Origin: Bacteroidales bacterium
GTDB taxonomy: Bacteria > Bacteroidota > Bacteroidia > Bacteroidales > UBA932
Reading direction: 5' to 3'
Length of the DNA stretch: 64,000 nt
Assembly: GCA_017427385.1 (NCBI GenBank)
Contig: JAFRSW010000022.1
Location: forward strand, 62,001 to 126,000
In this document: positions 1-10,917 of the stretch, in pieces
Layout of the letters: each line of letters starts with the position of its first letter
How positions within the stretch are numbered: the first letter of the stretch is position 1
The notes under the pieces: model-generated
The model's database searches: none
Told to the model about the DNA's origin: nothing
What the model saw: only the letters and a program-made list of their open reading frames with translations
Program-made: the position numbers and the translations under genes

Positions 1-2284
1 CGATTTTTGCGTGCGAGCCAAGGGTATGGGCGGCGAGGTAGAGGAACAGATCCCGGAAATTGCATTCCGGATTCTCCGTCAGATAATCTGTCAGACTGAG
101 GGAGAACCTGTCGCACATCCAGATGCGCGCCGAGGAGTTCCAGTGCTCAGCCCACGACATTTCGCTGGCGCTTGCCCCGGAAATGGCAAGGACTCCCCGG
201 ATTCCGTCAACATTGCGTATGACAGCCTCCCCGTAGCACGGTTCGGCGCATATCAGCAGCTTTCGGAAAGTCATCTTTTCCGCTGTCTCTTTGAGGAGCC
301 CGGCGCCGAAGCCTTCGCCCGGGGGTTTGTCTCTCCAGCAGAATTCATCGGCTCCGTCGGTGGGCTGGCTGTGTCCGTGGCCGCTCCAATAAAGAAGGAC
401 ATTCGCTCCGGCGTCCTGCGGCAGCACTGTATGGAGCCGTCCGCTGCTCCTGCCCAGCAGGATGTCGGCTATATCGGCGGGGAAGAGGTCCTTGCTGTCG
501 TAATCCATGACGGCGGCGGGAAGGGCGTCTGTGCCTCCAAGAAGGTCGAGCCCATCTTCCGCGTTTCTGACAATCCCCGGTTCGGGATTCATCTCGTCCG
601 AAGCCATGTCCTTGTCCAGAACGAGGATGATATGGTCGTCCGGGAAACCGCGGCTGCGGAGCATCTGATACACGCCGAGCACATCTGCCTGATGCCGGTA
701 GTTGCTGAAACCATTGCTGCCCTGCACGAGGACAGCATACTGGCAGTCGAGTTCGGGATAGCTGAAATCCGCGCCGCCCGAAGCCTGGGAGTCGAAATCG
801 GACCTTGCCTGCTGCTCGCTGTAGAGATATCGCCAGGCGGCGTTGGCATCGGCGGTACGGCCTCCGGATCCTCCGAAATAACCCCGGTGATGGATTTCAC
901 CGTCCAGAATCTGCCAGAGGACATAGGTGGTTGAAGTGGCCGCGGTGTAGGTCTGACTGTCGAAACTGATTTCTCCTGACGCACCGATGAAGTGAAGCAG
1001 CCGCCCCTGCTCGAGTGCATTCAGATACACTTCCATGGATGTGGCGTTCCAGGCAGCTCCGCCGAGTTCCTCTCCGTCGGCGTTCATGGTGATGTCGATG
1101 ATGGCATGGTTGAAAGCCTTGTTGTCGGCATCCCCGCCCGAATGTTCCACATGGCATGCGGCGAAACCGACGACCATGAGCGCATCGTAAAACTTGCATT
1201 CGGCGAAGCCGGGTTTGGAACCGAAACGTACCTCGTAGCTGAGTTCGAAACCCGTGGAAGGATCTGCGTAGGGCGAAAATCCTTCGTATCCCTGCAGGAT
1301 ATTCCATGAACGCGGCCCTATGGCATCCACATCTTCTTCATAAAAGCCAGGGATTGCAAAATATGTGTTGTACGCCGATTTGAACAACTGCCAGTACTTG
1401 TCGTTGGCGGGGTCGTCGGGATCCGTGCTGTCGTGAAGCAGGCTCCAGAATTCATCGTTCATAACCGCTGCGCGGTTGGCGCGGGCCACCTCATACATCT
1501 GATCCGCCGTTTCCGCCACGCAGAAAACAGCGGACTCCGCCACTCCCTGCCCGGTTGCAACCGCACGGTATTTGTCGAATATGGAAAGTAGTTCCTGCGT
1601 GTTGCCGTACTGCAGATTCTGCTGGAGGATGATATTGTTCTGAAGTGAATAGAACGGCGCCCAGTAGTTGAATGTCATTCCGTATGCATCCACGGGAGAG
1701 AAAAATGCGGCCTTCGGACTGCGTATGATGGTGTCGTAGTACTTGCTGACAGAAGCATAACGGGTCATCATCAGGCCGGTGAAGGAGACGTCACTTTCCG
1801 TCAGGGCCCATAGGAATGGCTCCTTGTTTATATTCAGGCCGCTCGTCGTAACTGCATACCGGCGTATAATGTCTTCGCTGGTCGCCGTCGGCGCCATGAG
1901 AGGCTTGAGCGTTCGTTTGCAGGCAGGAGCGAAGTCGGCGATGTTCTCGTTTCCGAAAGGCCCCACGACTGCAATCACATCTTCCCTTCCGGCCAGTTCG
2001 CGGCTCAGCTTCACAAGGTCTTCCGACAGTTCGTCGTACCATTCAAGTTTGAGGTCGATTGCGACGGCGTTGTGTCGCTGCGCTTCCCGAAAGTTCTCCA
2101 GGAACCATTTCGCGGTGCGCTCAAGCCGCTTTTTGGAAGTTTTGTCGCCAATGGGCGCCACGACGGCTACCGTGCGTTCTGTCCAGTGACGCTGGCTCTG
2201 ATACACCGTCTCTTTATTCCCGCATGCCGTCAGGATTAGGCCCGCGGCGATGCACAGCAGGATACCAATCAGCCTTTTACTCAT
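1..2284 (-). CDS. Lipoprotein with type I periplasmic-binding domain fused to C13 (legumain-like) cysteine peptidase, 3' end outside window
   Basis: The frame is open from the ATG at 2284 to the left edge (761 codons, no stop). A lipoprotein signal ends in LTAC with the lipidated Cys at 21. Residues about 30-490 resemble Leu/Ile/Val-type substrate-binding proteins, for example AVVGPFGNENIADF followed by a PLMAPTATS stretch, and late PBP-I patterns around a YDAL motif. From about residue 510 the protein matches legumain-family C13 peptidases: YAVLVQGSNGFSNYRHQADV, then MNPEPGIV, then YWSGHGH with catalytic His636, then CAEPCYGE with catalytic Cys683, and near the edge HTLGSHA, equivalent to the legumain SHTNTSHV region. 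The catalytic dyad is intact. The start overlaps the stop of the upstream lipoprotein gene by 8 bp, so the two are probably translationally coupled. Location is inferred to be periplasmic or outer membrane. The substrate is unknown. The domain calls are firm; the biological role is not. Confidence 0.85.
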   Translation of the reverse strand, partial: MSKRLIGILLCIAAGLILTACGNKETVYQSQRHWTERTVAVVAPIGDKTSKKRLERTAKWFLENFREAQRHNAVAIDLKLEWYDELSEDLVKLSRELAGREDVIAVVGPFGNENIADFAPACKRTLKPLMAPTATSEDIIRRYAVTTSGLNINKEPFLWALTESDVSFTGLMMTRYASVSKYYDTIIRSPKAAFFSPVDAYGMTFNYWAPFYSLQNNIILQQNLQYGNTQELLSIFDKYRAVATGQGVAESAVFCVAETADQMYEVARANRAAVMNDEFWSLLHDSTDPDDPANDKYWQLFKSAYNTYFAIPGFYEEDVDAIGPRSWNILQGYEGFSPYADPSTGFELSYEVRFGSKPGFAECKFYDALMVVGFAACHVEHSGGDADNKAFNHAIIDITMNADGEELGGAAWNATSMEVYLNALEQGRLLHFIGASGEISFDSQTYTAATSTTYVLWQILDGEIHHRGYFGGSGGRTADANAAWRYLYSEQQARSDFDSQASGGADFSYPELDCQYAVLVQGSNGFSNYRHQADVLGVYQMLRSRGFPDDHIILVLDKDMASDEMNPEPGIVRNAEDGLDLLGGTDALPAAVMDYDSKDLFPADIADILLGRSSGRLHTVLPQDAGANVLLYWSGHGHSQPTDGADEFCWRDKPPGEGFGAGLLKETAEKMTFRKLLICAEPCYGEAVIRNVDGIRGVLAISGASASEMSWAEHWNSSARIWMCDRFSLSLTDYLTENPECNFRDLFLYLAAHTLGSHAKI

Positions 2285-3341
2285 TCCCGGCCTCCTTTTT
2301 CATGGCGTCTGCGTGTATGGTTTGGAGCAGATCTTCCGGCAGATAACGTTCAATGATGGCTTTCTGCAAATCGGTGTAGGGATGCAGGACGACTTCCGTC
2401 CATCCGTCGGCAAATGACAGGGTCTGGTGCTTTGGCATCCCCTCTGAAGACAGCCACTGGCCGATGCACAGGTCAATGGCCCTGTCGATATGTTTGACTA
2501 CGGAAAACGGGCAGTGGTTAGAGATGCTGACAACGTCGATGCCTATATAATCAAATCCTCCGAACAGGCCGCTCATGCGGTAGAATGTGCCGGAAGCACC
2601 CCCGCACACCGGAAATACGAGCCGGGCGACCGGGAGGGTTTCGGAGTCGTAGACTATGCGCATCGCGTCTTCGTCGTCAATCCTGAATCCGCCCCCTTCT
2701 TCATCGGAAATCCATTCCACCTGAAGCTCATGGTCATCCCCGGTCAGGACGTATTTTGCATTGAAGCCTTCTGTAAAACCTTCCACGGACTCCCTTATGG
2801 CCGACGCCAGGGGATTCGCGGCAATCAGGAGCAAGTTGTCCGAGAACGCGGTTGCGACCGCTCCGGCCTCGTACATGGCGCTGTAATACGGCAGGCAGAT
2901 GGTGGATCCTTTGCCAGGAAGCGGATCCTTCGTTTCAAGGTACAGCAGGTCAGCGCGCGGACAAGCTCCCAGCTCATCGCTGTGCCGGCGGAGATAATCG
3001 TCGTATTCGCTCCCCGCCACTATGAGAAGCCTCCGCACCGTGTCCCGGAGCATTGACATCTGCTCGAAATAAGTCTGGAGGATTGCAAGGCCCTCCGCGC
3101 TTGTGGACGGTGAAAACTGCATTGTGCGCAGCCCGTTTGCGAGGGCGGTCCGCTCGACTCCGGCATAAATCAGATCGTTGTAGCTCCTGTCGCCCAAAGC
3201 GCCGGGATCGTACACGACCGTCACCAGAGCTTTGCCGGAAGGGACGTCGGCAGGATCCGGCTCATAATGCACCTTCCTGCACCCCATCGCCATCAGGGCA
3301 ATTGCGGTCATCAGCAGATATTTTGCAGGCAGAGTATTCAT
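2277..3341 (-). CDS. BMP/PnrA-like substrate-binding lipoprotein
   Basis: A 354-residue protein with a lipoprotein signal (MAMGC, Cys21). The mature part begins with VTVVYDPGALGDRSYND, the pattern that opens the basic-membrane-protein (PnrA/TmpC, Med) family of nucleoside-type binding proteins. Later patterns also fit that family: VFPVCGGASGTF and FDYIGIDVV. No permease or ATPase genes lie next to it, so it may be a receptor rather than part of an ABC importer. It is the first gene of a two-gene minus operon; its TAA lies inside the start region of the PBP/C13 fusion gene. A clear -7 element lies 19 nt upstream of its ATG. Ligand unknown. Confidence 0.75.
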   Translation of the reverse strand: MNTLPAKYLLMTAIALMAMGCRKVHYEPDPADVPSGKALVTVVYDPGALGDRSYNDLIYAGVERTALANGLRTMQFSPSTSAEGLAILQTYFEQMSMLRDTVRRLLIVAGSEYDDYLRRHSDELGACPRADLLYLETKDPLPGKGSTICLPYYSAMYEAGAVATAFSDNLLLIAANPLASAIRESVEGFTEGFNAKYVLTGDDHELQVEWISDEEGGGFRIDDEDAMRIVYDSETLPVARLVFPVCGGASGTFYRMSGLFGGFDYIGIDVVSISNHCPFSVVKHIDRAIDLCIGQWLSSEGMPKHQTLSFADGWTEVVLHPYTDLQKAIIERYLPEDLLQTIHADAMKKEAGNE

Positions 3342-3360
3342 TTCGCATTCTCCTGTTCTG

Positions 3361-3368
3361 CAAAATTA
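3361..3368 (-). promoter_or_regulatory. -7 promoter element of the binding-protein/C13 operon
   Basis: On the minus strand this reads TAATTTTG, an exact match to the Bacteroidota -7 consensus TAnnTTTG, 19 nt before the ATG at 3341. Confidence 0.6.
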
Positions 3369-7785: not shown

Positions 7786-8928
7786 CTAAAGCCATATCAG
7801 AGGATTCCTTACAGGGAGATTACGGAGCACTTCCGCGTTTGTCGGGAAGTGCTCGTAGTTTTTCCATGCACGGTAATAGGACTCTTCGCCGAAGCGCAGC
7901 CATGCGAACAGGAAAGCGGGCTGAGCCACAGGCCATTCATCCCAGTACATGACATCTTCTCCATATGGCCACTTGGTTTTATCCTGGACATATGGGAGCA
8001 TGAACTCTACTGCTTTCTGCATGTCATTCCACAAGTCTTCTCCATCTTGCGACAGGATATGGCAGAGGACTGCCATTGCATCCAGGTTGAAGAGCGAATA
8101 GCCGTATGGCTTGGTGCGGGCCAGTTCCTGCGGGAAACTTCCGTCCTCCGCCATCTGGGTGGGAATGAAAACATCCTTGAAGCGCTGCCGGCAAAGCCCG
8201 GTAATCTCCTTGTTTCCCGTAAAACGGGCAAAAGCGGCCGCCTGAAGGGCCCAGCAGGTGCCATGATTGTTCCTGGCGTTCATCTCGTCTATGCCATACT
8301 GGTGGGTAGTCAGCCAGTGGAGATACTCCGAGAACCAGTTCTGCGCTCCTTCGATGCACTCCGAACTTATCGCCCCGGCATCCCTGAGGCGGATCAGCGC
8401 CTGCGCCACTTCTATCAGATGAATAGTATCGATTATGCCTATGCCCCTCCCGGTTGCACGCCCTTTTATTGCCTGGGCGTACCGGAGGCTTGGGTTCATT
8501 TTTGTGTCTTCGTCGATAAACCACGCACGTACATGTTTCTCCACGGCAGCGGCATATCTGGCATCTCCCGTAAGCAGATAAGCGGACGTGAGTGAGCCCA
8601 CGGCCATGCTGAAATCTATCATCGCCTTCCTGTGTGCGGAGAAATTGTCCGGATTGCTTTCGCCGTCGCGCCTGATGTAAGGCCCGTCGGGATTCTCGGG
8701 ATCCGGCCACCAGTAATCCCCTTCTGAATAGAAATCATGCATGCCTCCGGCGCTGCGCTCGGCAACGAAAGCGGTAACTGTCACAGGCTCGGTATCAAGC
8801 CAACTGTCAGCTCCGGAAATGATTCCCTGTTCGAGAAGTGATGATACTTTTTGACTTGGCGAAACACTGCAAGAAGACGCAAGCAATAGGACGCTGAAGA
8901 GCAGGAAGATGGATGTGGCTTTATTCAT
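7786..8928 (-). CDS. Alginate lyase family (PF05426-like) lipoprotein
   Basis: A protein of 380 residues with lipobox ASSC (Cys20). It has the all-alpha toroid pattern of the alginate-lyase superfamily: DYWWPDPENPDGPYIRRDGE at about 71-90, MNPSLRYAQAIKG, and the catalytic EMNARNNHGTCW with Asn220-Asn221-His222. These enzymes cleave uronate-containing polysaccharides by beta-elimination. The family also contains glucuronan and related lyases, so alginate itself is only one candidate. It converges on the GH3 gene. Its -7 element is just 5 nt from the ATG, implying an almost leaderless transcript. Confidence 0.82.
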   Translation of the reverse strand: MNKATSIFLLFSVLLLASSCSVSPSQKVSSLLEQGIISGADSWLDTEPVTVTAFVAERSAGGMHDFYSEGDYWWPDPENPDGPYIRRDGESNPDNFSAHRKAMIDFSMAVGSLTSAYLLTGDARYAAAVEKHVRAWFIDEDTKMNPSLRYAQAIKGRATGRGIGIIDTIHLIEVAQALIRLRDAGAISSECIEGAQNWFSEYLHWLTTHQYGIDEMNARNNHGTCWALQAAAFARFTGNKEITGLCRQRFKDVFIPTQMAEDGSFPQELARTKPYGYSLFNLDAMAVLCHILSQDGEDLWNDMQKAVEFMLPYVQDKTKWPYGEDVMYWDEWPVAQPAFLFAWLRFGEESYYRAWKNYEHFPTNAEVLRNLPVRNPLIWL

Positions 8929-8933
8929 ATCTG

Positions 8934-8941
8934 CAAAGATA
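8934..8941 (-). promoter_or_regulatory. -7 element of the alginate-lyase-family gene
   Basis: Reads TATCTTTG on the minus strand. Five bases lie between its last G and the ATG at 8928. Confidence 0.6.
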
Positions 8942-8994
8942 AGCGAATTATCATAATGCCGGAATCAAATACTTGTTGTTCCAAAAAATAATAG

Positions 8995-9002
8995 TATATT
9001 TG
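8995..9002 (+). promoter_or_regulatory. -7 element of tRNA-Val
   Basis: TATATTTG with an upstream TTG at 8973-8975 (19 bp spacer), 11 nt before the tRNA 5' end. Confidence 0.65.
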
Positions 9003-9013
9003 CACTCCGATTC

Positions 9014-9088
9014 GGGACCTTAGCTCAGTCGGTTTAGAGCGCTTGCTTCACACGCAAGAGGTCAGCAGTTCGAATCTGCTAGGTCCCA
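9014..9088 (+). tRNA. tRNA-Val, anticodon CAC
   Basis: A complete cloverleaf. The acceptor arms GGGACCT and AGGTCCC pair fully, the D arm contains AGCTCAGTCGGTTTAGAGC, and the anticodon stem CTTGC/GCAAG encloses the loop TTCACAC with CAC at 9049-9051. The T arm holds GTTCGAATC. The 3' CCA is not encoded (CA follows the discriminator A). It decodes GUG. Transcription may continue into the acyltransferase gene 20 bp downstream. Confidence 0.95.
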
Positions 9089-9108
9089 CATTGTTTACCA
9101 TATCCTAT

Positions 9109-10917
9109 ATGGAAAAACAAAAGTACGTAGTATCTGAAGCCGACCTGCAGAACGCCCTGGGGCTCAAAGGAGCATTCGGACGTTTTGTGACACGTCGCAT
9201 ACATCGCCTCCTCGAACTACATAAAATCAATGCAATGCACGAGAAACTCATGGAGCATGATGGTCCGGAGTTTTCCGAAGCTGTGCTTAAAGAGGTTGGC
9301 GTCACCTACGAGATTCTCCCCGAACAACTTGCCCGCATCCCCGAAGAGGGAGGCTTCATCACCGTATCCAACCATCATTTCGGCAGCATAGACGGTCTCA
9401 TCCTCAGTTCGGTAATAGGCGGAAAGAGAAAGGATTACCGCATTCTCACCACCTTTGTGCTCGCATTGATTCCCAGCCTCAAGAGCAGTTTCATGCCGGT
9501 TGACAACCTGAGCGGAAGCAAGGCAAGCGTAAAAAGTGTCCACGGCATCAGGATGGCCCTCCAGCACATCCACGACGGTGGCGCCCTAGGCTTCTTCCCC
9601 GCCGGCGAGGTGGGCACCTACCAGAAGGGCGCGAAGCGCACTGCGGTGGGCAAGAAGAAGGTCGTGGAAGACAAACCCTGGGCGGAAAACATCATCAAGC
9701 TAATAAAGAATTCCGGATTCCCGGTAATTCCCATATACTTCGAAGGCACCAACTCCAAGTTCTTCCACTTCCTCGGCAAGATACATCCCCGCCTCCGCAC
9801 CGTACGCCTGATACACGAGATGCTCAACAAGAAGGGCACCCACGTGAAAGTTCGCATCGGCCAGGCCATCACCCCCGAAGAGATGAGCAAGTACAGCGTG
9901 CCCGAACTTGGCAAGTACCTGCGCAATCGCACATACGCCCTTCAGGCCGAGTGCCTGCCCCAGAAAGAGATTGCAGCACAGGACATTACAGAGCCTCTGG
10001 CAGAGCCTGTAGATCCCGAGGTTATCCGCCAGGAGATGGCCGCCATATCCGACCGCATCATGTTCGAGGTCGGGGACTACCGCATGTATCTTACCACGGT
10101 CGATGGCATACCTCACGCAATGTGGGAACTTGCCCGTCTCCGCGAAGAGACCTTCCGCGCCGTCGGAGAAGGCACTGGCAAGGCCATAGATACCGACAGA
10201 TTCGACCCCAACTTCCACCACCTCATCCTTTGGAACATCCCTAACGGGGAGATTGTAGGAGCATACCGCATCGGAGCGGGCTCCGAGGTGGTCGCCAAGC
10301 ATGGCATGGCCGGGCTCTACACCTCCACTCTGTTCGACTATGCTCCGGGCAACGAGGAGACCTTTGCCAAGTGCCTGGAACTGGGCCGTACTTTCATCCA
10401 GCAGAAATACCAGAGAGAGGTCCTCAGCCTCAAGCTCCTGCTCACCGGCGTGAGCGCCTCCACCGTCTTCTTCCCGGAAGCAAGATTTTTCCTTGGCCCC
10501 GTGAGCATAAGCAACAGCATCCCGGATTTCTACAAGAGCCTGATAGTCTGGTACATAGAAAAGAACTTCACAGATCCCGAGGTAAGCAAGCTAGCGTCCC
10601 CGGTGCATAGGTTCAATTCCGATTTCCTTGCGGTAAATCCCGAGCAACTGTGCAGCAAGGTAGAGAGCCTCGATGATCTTGACAAGCTGATTCTGGCCAT
10701 TTCCGATGGCAAGTACCGGATTCCGGTGCTTGTGAAGAAATATTTCAGCTATAAAGCAAAGCTGATTTGCTTCAACGTGGATCCCGACTTCCAGAATTCT
10801 CTTGACGGACTTATCCTCCTCAAACTCAAGGACTTCCCAAAGAATTACCTAAAATCGCTTATCAAGGTACTGCCAGAAGACCTTCAGGAAAAGATTATGA
10901 CCGAGTATCCAGATTAG
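9109..10917 (+). CDS. OlsF-like bifunctional acyltransferase (PlsC-type domain plus GNAT/OlsB-type domain)
   Basis: The start is the ATG at 9109, just after the tRNA; upstream starts would lie inside the tRNA. The 602-residue protein has two parts. Residues about 75-300 form a lysophospholipid-acyltransferase domain, with SNHHFGSIDG giving HX4D at His90/Asp95 and FPAGEVGTY. Residues about 335-500 resemble the hemolysin/OlsB N-acyltransferase (GNAT) domain (FEVGDYRMYL, ARLREETFRAVGEGTG, IVGAYRIG). The order matches OlsF, which makes ornithine lipids: its C-terminal domain N-acylates the amino acid and its N-terminal domain then O-acylates. Bacteroidota also make glycine and serine-glycine lipids by the same chemistry, so the head-group amino acid is open. 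It is probably a peripheral inner-membrane protein. Confidence 0.8.
   Translation: MEKQKYVVSEADLQNALGLKGAFGRFVTRRIHRLLELHKINAMHEKLMEHDGPEFSEAVLKEVGVTYEILPEQLARIPEEGGFITVSNHHFGSIDGLILSSVIGGKRKDYRILTTFVLALIPSLKSSFMPVDNLSGSKASVKSVHGIRMALQHIHDGGALGFFPAGEVGTYQKGAKRTAVGKKKVVEDKPWAENIIKLIKNSGFPVIPIYFEGTNSKFFHFLGKIHPRLRTVRLIHEMLNKKGTHVKVRIGQAITPEEMSKYSVPELGKYLRNRTYALQAECLPQKEIAAQDITEPLAEPVDPEVIRQEMAAISDRIMFEVGDYRMYLTTVDGIPHAMWELARLREETFRAVGEGTGKAIDTDRFDPNFHHLILWNIPNGEIVGAYRIGAGSEVVAKHGMAGLYTSTLFDYAPGNEETFAKCLELGRTFIQQKYQREVLSLKLLLTGVSASTVFFPEARFFLGPVSISNSIPDFYKSLIVWYIEKNFTDPEVSKLASPVHRFNSDFLAVNPEQLCSKVESLDDLDKLILAISDGKYRIPVLVKKYFSYKAKLICFNVDPDFQNSLDGLILLKLKDFPKNYLKSLIKVLPEDLQEKIMTEYPD

Follow-up and report, generated by a model that had tools for sequence, protein, structure and literature searches.

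At the left end of a 64-kb stretch of a Bacteroidales genome (contig JAFRSW010000022.1, positions 62,001 to 126,000, or G000:C21:62001-126000 in our numbering; hereafter the window), two overlapping genes encode a conserved sensor-protease pair that is linked to genes for pore-forming and other lipoproteins. One gene product fuses a type I periplasmic-binding domain to a legumain-like protease of family C13, and the other is a BMP-like binding lipoprotein. The pair had been singled out in an original prediction, and the observation itself is confirmed and is stronger than first stated. The interpretation attached to it is partly supported: the fusion, the lipid anchor motif and the conservation of the two genes together were right. 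The genomic setting, in which the pair can stand in arrays with MACPF genes, suggests a ligand-controlled switch for surface effectors.

A legumain-like protease fused to a binding domain

The fusion was called as an open reading frame (ORF) on the reverse strand at 2..2284, with a signal peptide, a LivK/LivJ-type binding domain and a legumain-like C13 protease. It spans 761 amino acids in the window and is open at the left window edge; on the full contig the protein has 788 amino acids, the final 27 lying beyond the window. On the same strand, the binding domain (residues 36-481) is encoded at 842..2179 and the catalytic domain (residues 512 onwards, its C-terminal end outside the window) at 2..751, with the catalytic His636 at 377..379 and the nucleophile Cys683 at 236..238. 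The Pfam family Peptidase_C13 (PF01650) matched residues 515-758 with an E-value of 4.8e-32 and 112 bits, against a cut-off of 22.8. The same family matched all 50 relatives in our fusion alignment (E<=0.5), which holds 50 of the 76 full-length fusions after dereplication at 80%. When aligned with solved structures, the C13 stretch matches legumain, GPI transamidase and plant ligases, and the NYRHQAD motif, the catalytic His and the catalytic Cys are in register with legumain. The intact dyad that had been proposed is indeed present: H636 and C683 are found in 50 of 50 relatives, and N528 in 48. R530, H531, E681 and S710 are likewise found in all 50 and D725 in 46; we take these five to be the S1 pocket equivalents of Arg44, His45, Glu187, Ser and Asp231. 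These alignments show a complete predicted set of legumain-like catalytic residues fused to a binding domain.

The fusion terminates at residue 788, directly after the catalytic domain, and the C-terminal LSAM/pro-domain of legumain proper is absent. Because nothing extends past the catalytic domain, control of the enzyme, if any, would probably come from the fused N-terminal domain, which the absence of the legumain C-terminal control domain makes its probable natural regulator.

The family of this N-terminal half is best seen in relatives. Pfam gave no match on window residues 1-510, whereas ANF_receptor matched 44 of the 50 fusion relatives and Peripla_BP_6 matched 28 (E<=0.5). An AlphaFold2 model of a 99%-identical ortholog (predicted local distance difference test score 87.6) has a binding half that matches LivK/LivJ, and a two-lobed type I periplasmic-binding fold is predicted across the N-terminal domain. 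Profiles and model together support a sensor fold for one half and a protease fold for the other.

A lipobox pattern is present in 72 of the 76 full-length fusions and in 54 of 61 BMP-like proteins; in the window fusion the lipobox Cys21 (2222..2224, reverse strand) is kept in 50 of 50 sequences of alignment A3. At least two Asp or Glu residues stand at positions +2 to +7 after the anchor Cys in 76 of 97 fusions, a figure that stands without a control set of lipoproteins. Such acidic residues after a lipid-anchored Cys suggest that both proteins are probably lipoproteins of the outer surface.

The BMP-like partner and the conservation of the pair

The upstream partner lies on the reverse strand at 2277..3341 and encodes a lipoprotein of 354 amino acids with a lipobox Cys21. 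As had been predicted, the stop of this gene and the start of the fusion overlap by 8 bp (2277..2284, reverse strand), which the ORF coordinates confirm. The assignment to the BMP type stood only in part: the Pfam family Bmp fell below its cut-off in the window protein (E 0.052, 13 bits, cut-off 24.1), and it matched 18 of 38 relatives at E<=0.5, the best at 2.6e-9. These 38 were taken from 61 full-length sequences (dereplicated at 75% to 39, L055 excluded; the start of L018 set by hand). We consider the label BMP-like, which rests on such profile matches, to be fair but remote. A single promoter shared by both genes is plausible. The octamer TAATTTTG at 3361..3368 (reverse strand) is -7-like, presumably corresponding to the Bacteroidales -7 element; upstream of the pair, neither a -33 element nor a full promoter consensus was found.

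The two genes are conserved together. We kept the best 80 of 331 relatives from a scan of contigs, some of them near-identical or from one genome. These 80 loci hold 82 fusion genes: in 72 a BMP-like gene stands upstream and shares the strand, six lack it and four are cut off at a contig edge, which gives 72 of the 78 genes away from an edge. The BMP profile used for this count combined 66 sequence-clustered members with the window protein and the positional neighbours P0010-P0012, which makes the count partly circular; P0010 had no Pfam match. Grouping the 115 fusion genes of the fetched loci at 80% identity yielded 70 clusters. An upstream BMP gene was called in 60 of them, with seven called without and three undecidable; L055, one of the seven, does have a BMP gene 181 nucleotides upstream (chosen start), which corrects the count to 61 of 67. 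Duplicate records (L013/L022, L020/L151, L024/L154, L025/L164, L030/L160, L091/L146 and L096/L156) share one cluster each in this count and were counted singly among the 115 genes and the 110 loci scanned below. With starts chosen by a lipobox rule, the BMP stop and the fusion start overlap by 8-14 nucleotides in 38 of 59 measured pairs and by any length in 43. The BMP gene also adjoins the fusion in seven of eight loci from other families, and the pair is present twice in tandem in G005 and G079.

The window's genus was searched for both genes. The fusion matched 34 of 250 sampled genomes, with 24 long copies and ten short fragments as judged by match length. The BMP alignment was positive in 18 of 250, all within those 34 genomes (hypergeometric probability 1.8e-18, assuming that the same 250 genomes were drawn and treating related species as if they were independent). 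One of the 18, G149, has a weak match on a different contig from its fusion fragment. The BMP search gave no match for seven of the 24 long-copy genomes; the gene was recovered in two of them (G106 and G225) with a more inclusive profile, and two others (G011 and G027) end at a contig edge. We take the two genes, a conserved and overlapping pair, to form a dedicated module of two lipoproteins.

Linkage to MACPF genes

MACPF genes lie on the strand of the pair and within 9 kb of it in 8 of the 70 clusters, many loci being cut by contig ends. They were confirmed with Pfam in L033, L148, L143, L142 and L073 and by genome search in G352 (L141). In several loci, L141, L142, L143, L148 and L033 among them, MACPF genes and the pair are tightly arrayed on one strand. 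In L142 the BMP gene and the fusion come after three MACPF genes, with no gap or overlap exceeding 15 nucleotides, and L148 presents on one strand the order c6, MACPF, BMP, fusion, c6, MACPF, c6, with gaps of no more than about 105 nucleotides (automatic starts in both cases; c6 is a lipoprotein cluster described below).

We searched for MACPF domains in 27 genomes carrying the fusion, namely 20 of the 34 fusion-positive congeners and seven other genomes; the long-copy genomes G011, G135, G238 and G262 and the ten fragment-only genomes were left out. This yielded 14 matches in six genomes. Ten of them, in G352, G555, G521 and G071, are no more than 10 kb from the fusion, against 0.19 expected at random. 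The remaining four (G005 and G079) are on other contigs, one of which, in G079, also bears a c6 gene. We built a tree from 27 MACPF domains, of which carriers contributed 13 and other genomes 14, and counted two label changes relative to 9.3 in shuffled trees, and none of 500 shuffles was as low (L162 and L163 were counted as linked by genome, not by adjacency). Carrier MACPFs cluster in this tree, which has several long branches and neither demonstrates nor rules out a single origin.

Distribution and loss

The fusion is not an artefact of a single chimeric contig, an explanation ruled out by its presence in the 80 kept loci from dozens of assemblies. Many of these relatives are named as Bacteroidales and Prevotella assemblies from the rumen or other ruminant guts. 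At the level of the order, matches were obtained in 10 of 393 genomes. Besides the window genome, these comprise seven long-copy genomes (families f55, f97, f102 and f104) and two with weak, short matches (G339 and G520), which were set aside. In a sample of the phylum PF01650 was detected in 15 of 228 genomes, nearly complete only in the window genome (positions 1-252 of 258) and partial in the rest.

Six contig-internal loci (L189-L194, L193 being weak) retain only short C-terminal pieces of the fusion, of about 35 to 107 residues, and no match to the BMP, MACPF, c3, c4, c6, c7 or c8 profiles was found beside them. Such scars fit an accessory system that is repeatedly lost. They occur in several congeners, for instance at L190 4819-5019 (+) and L191 2384-2626 (-), the latter joining two separate pieces of the C13 domain.

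Other neighbours and transporters

A lipoprotein N-acetylmuramidase gene (PF11860; 3403..4158, forward strand, probable start 3421) is divergent from the pair in the window. This gene adjoins the BMP gene in the window clade; in L020 (one record with L151) and in L023 the two share a strand. Its orientation differs between species (L012, L018 and L021 versus L020 and L023); in a search for inverted repeats able to flip it, only short or weak pairs were found.

On the same strand and within 9 kb of the pair, members of c6 were found in 12 of 70 clusters, c3 in 17 and AraC-type regulators (c4) in 18. The c6 proteins are large lipoproteins with the motifs YYRFGDVV...WICVRP...W, and the members tested had no Pfam or PDB match. 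Examples that accompany the pair and MACPF are found at L073 8371-13236, in L148, at L017 243-6296 and at L143 3193-5139. Strong c6 matches in the genus (E below 1e-90) occur in G005, G071, G079 and G262, all of which bear the fusion; among five genomes with weaker matches, only G116, with a short fragment, is on the fusion list. The c3 proteins are BACON lipoproteins of about 790 amino acids that have a Gly-rich middle part, and a c2 lipoprotein often comes next (L026 3493-5862, L035 8365-10743 and L015 2133-8949 are examples); the two could be an effector and its partner. The original single-linkage cluster c3 was chained through BACON and mixed unrelated proteins; the c3 counts given here use the A7 profile. 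Profile comparison did not reveal kinship of c3 or c6 with MACPF, only BACON or the signal peptide being aligned, and no PDB sequence matches were found for alignments A4, A6 and A7.

The c4 regulators have AraC-type HTH domains and stand upstream of the pair, as at L065 1541-3388, L073 2663-4477 and L027 2986-4587. They have a long N-terminal part in which we recognized by eye a TPR-like region and a membrane segment; in the L027 protein the HTH_18 family matched with E 9e-16. Lipoproteins weakly similar to secretory lipases are encoded near the fusion, and on its strand, in seven clusters, some without a BMP gene (L044 8470-10116, PF03583 E 6.4e-5; L068 8513-10159; L072 8312-9925). We rejected the reading as a known defence system, as PADLOC gave no match for seven proteins at E<=0.01.

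It had also been stated that no transporter lies nearby. This held for ATP-binding cassette (ABC) ATPases: a scan for Walker A and ABC signature motifs, which covered ATPases and not permeases, found none in the 64-kb window. A P-type ATPase gene (PF00122; L012 9569-11476, reverse strand) follows the fusion on the same strand, a little outside the left edge of the window. A similar-looking gene is behind the fusion in L013 (5681-7618, reverse strand). The same motif scan flagged seven ORFs in the 110 fusion loci, one of them falsely (the MACPF gene of L143). ABC-ATPase-like ORFs were assigned to L089, L091, L146, L147, L157 and L072, L091 and L146 being one record; in L140 such an ORF is about 7 kb from the pair. 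In L089 the ORF (8403-9275, +) comes immediately after the fusion and shares its strand; this is the single locus where the pair might serve a transporter. The ATPase scan suggests that, as a rule, the pair is not part of an ABC importer operon.

Possible functions of the pair

The presence of the pair in arrays with MACPF and other lipoprotein genes shifts the best reading towards the processing of co-encoded effectors. Our tentative but quite possible explanation of the whole is a ligand-controlled sensor-protease pair that processes surface lipoproteins encoded beside it. The BMP-like protein and the LivK-like domain would both be ligand-binding sensors, as a rule without an adjoining transporter, the second being built into the protease. 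Ligand gating, with the BMP protein as co-receptor, had been suggested in the original prediction and is kept here as a hypothesis. A small ligand, amino-acid-like if the resemblance to LivK is meaningful, may bind and thereby open or position the C13 active site; the active protease would then cut after Asn or Asp in co-encoded surface lipoproteins, leading to their release or maturation. In several lineages the candidate targets are the MACPF pore-formers and companion lipoproteins; for the window clade, the muramidase lipoprotein is a possible one. Surface location, ligand gating and cleavage of co-encoded lipoproteins are what we infer here. The more specific form, a surface receptor in which an amino-acid-like cue directly switches on a ligand-gated bacterial legumain that arms MACPF and other lipoprotein effectors with BMP as a second sensor, in parallel to perforin-2 processing, seems rather doubtful.

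Several observations weigh against the processing of co-encoded effectors. MACPF genes accompany the pair in only 8 of 70 clusters, and the window genome has no match in the carrier MACPF search. Nor does MACPF generally go together with the fusion: in the order it occurs in 17 of 294 genomes, of which two, G352 and G521, have a fusion match. The muramidase gene is divergent in most loci, and six of the 110 loci have an ABC-ATPase-like ORF no further than 5 kb away. An Asn-rich cleavage linker between BACON and MACPF was unconvincing, with 12 Asn among 154 residues against 5.0% overall; three of ten linked proteins lacked the motif and were dropped, and the figure stands without an unlinked control.

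The pair might instead serve nutrient acquisition, with a surface protease digesting environmental protein, binding domains capturing or sensing amino acids or peptides, and neighbouring lipoproteins binding substrates. The likeness to LivK/LivJ amino-acid binders, the BACON or F5/8-type domains of some neighbours, the ruminant-gut origin of many relatives and the ORF behind the fusion in L089 all agree with this. We nevertheless consider it unlikely: nearby ABC-ATPase-like ORFs are confined to those six loci, linkage to MACPF would be unexpected, and a single narrow specificity, like that of legumain, makes a poor digestive enzyme. A sensor-triggered protease might also protect its producer by destroying pore-forming or lytic proteins at the cell surface, whether the cell's own or those of a neighbour. 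MACPF linkage agrees with this, and repeated loss leaving short C-terminal scars is what accessory conflict genes might present. Such self-protection is quite unlikely, however, as many loci lack MACPF and a sensor-gated protease would be an unusual immunity factor.

Cleavage of a membrane regulator by the sensor pair could control transcription of the operon, and this signalling role is favoured by the c4 regulators with long N-terminal regions, which share the strand of the pair in 18 of 70 clusters. It is very unlikely: no c4 regulator was detected at the window locus, nor in 52 of 70 clusters (a figure that includes contig edges), and a surface location would part the enzyme from the regulator. 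Transpeptidation, which the original prediction had offered beside proteolysis, gained no specific support. Acting in the manner of GPI transamidase or plant ligases, the C13 domain would attach co-encoded proteins to an acceptor at the surface. The neighbours already appear lipid-anchored (starts by the lipobox rule), and a shared C-terminal sorting signal was not noticed, no systematic search having been made; we regard this role as most improbable.

Comparison with known systems

The processing of effectors would have precedents. Clan CD proteases can be ligand-activated (PMC4357240). Fragipain activates Fab1 (PMC8406203), BcpT is activated by bacterial proteases (PMC9308784), and the surface C11 lipoprotein protease DpnB cuts and activates CDCL pore-formers (PMC11169675). 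Legumain, or asparagine endopeptidase, takes part in the cutting and maturation of the MACPF protein perforin-2; other enzymes can substitute for it there, and the cut is dispensable for pore formation in vitro (PMC7614779).

The proposed pair would work in a manner akin to the C11 proteases, with a sensor of its own. Like fragipain and DpnB, the fusion is a clan CD lipoprotein protease with a probable surface site, and the C11 enzymes activate toxins that include the pore-forming CDCLs (PMC8406203, PMC11169675). Unlike them, it belongs to C13, whereas they cut after Arg or Lys; the available text of these two papers mentions no fused sensor and describes no arraying with the genes of the activated toxins. 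Compared with legumain and the other C13 enzymes of MEROPS, including the GPI transamidase PIG-K, the fusion lacks the C-terminal LSAM control domain and is a bacterial lipoprotein with an N-terminal lipid anchor and a binding domain. LivK/LivJ bind branched-chain amino acids, whereas the corresponding domain is here fused to a protease and has an ABC-ATPase-like ORF near few loci only. The partner resembles BMP/PnrA lipoproteins in its remote Pfam matches and its frequent lipobox; unlike them, it falls below the cut-off in the window and, in the genus sample, is confined to genomes with a fusion match.

BSAPs are MACPF surface lipoproteins of Bacteroidales (PMC12853789), and the MACPFs found here are likewise lipid-anchored but arrayed with a sensor-protease pair. 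They cluster apart from most of the 14 sampled non-carrier MACPFs, a comparison that included no BSAP itself. Among the matches listed in the open-access literature, with most subscription papers and all preprints outside it, none dealt with a legumain of bacteria that is joined to a binding protein or shows linkage to MACPF. Although the catalytic and sensor domains belong to known families, the way in which they are combined, the partner and the genomic setting look undescribed. Toxin activation in Bacteroidales is known for surface C11 proteases, and here a protease of the legumain type, with its own sensor-like domain, is arrayed with MACPF lipoproteins in several lineages. If the proposed processing is true, the pair would constitute a genetically compact and testable example of effectors that mature on a bacterial surface under the control of a signal. 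It would also parallel the action of mammalian legumain on perforin-2.

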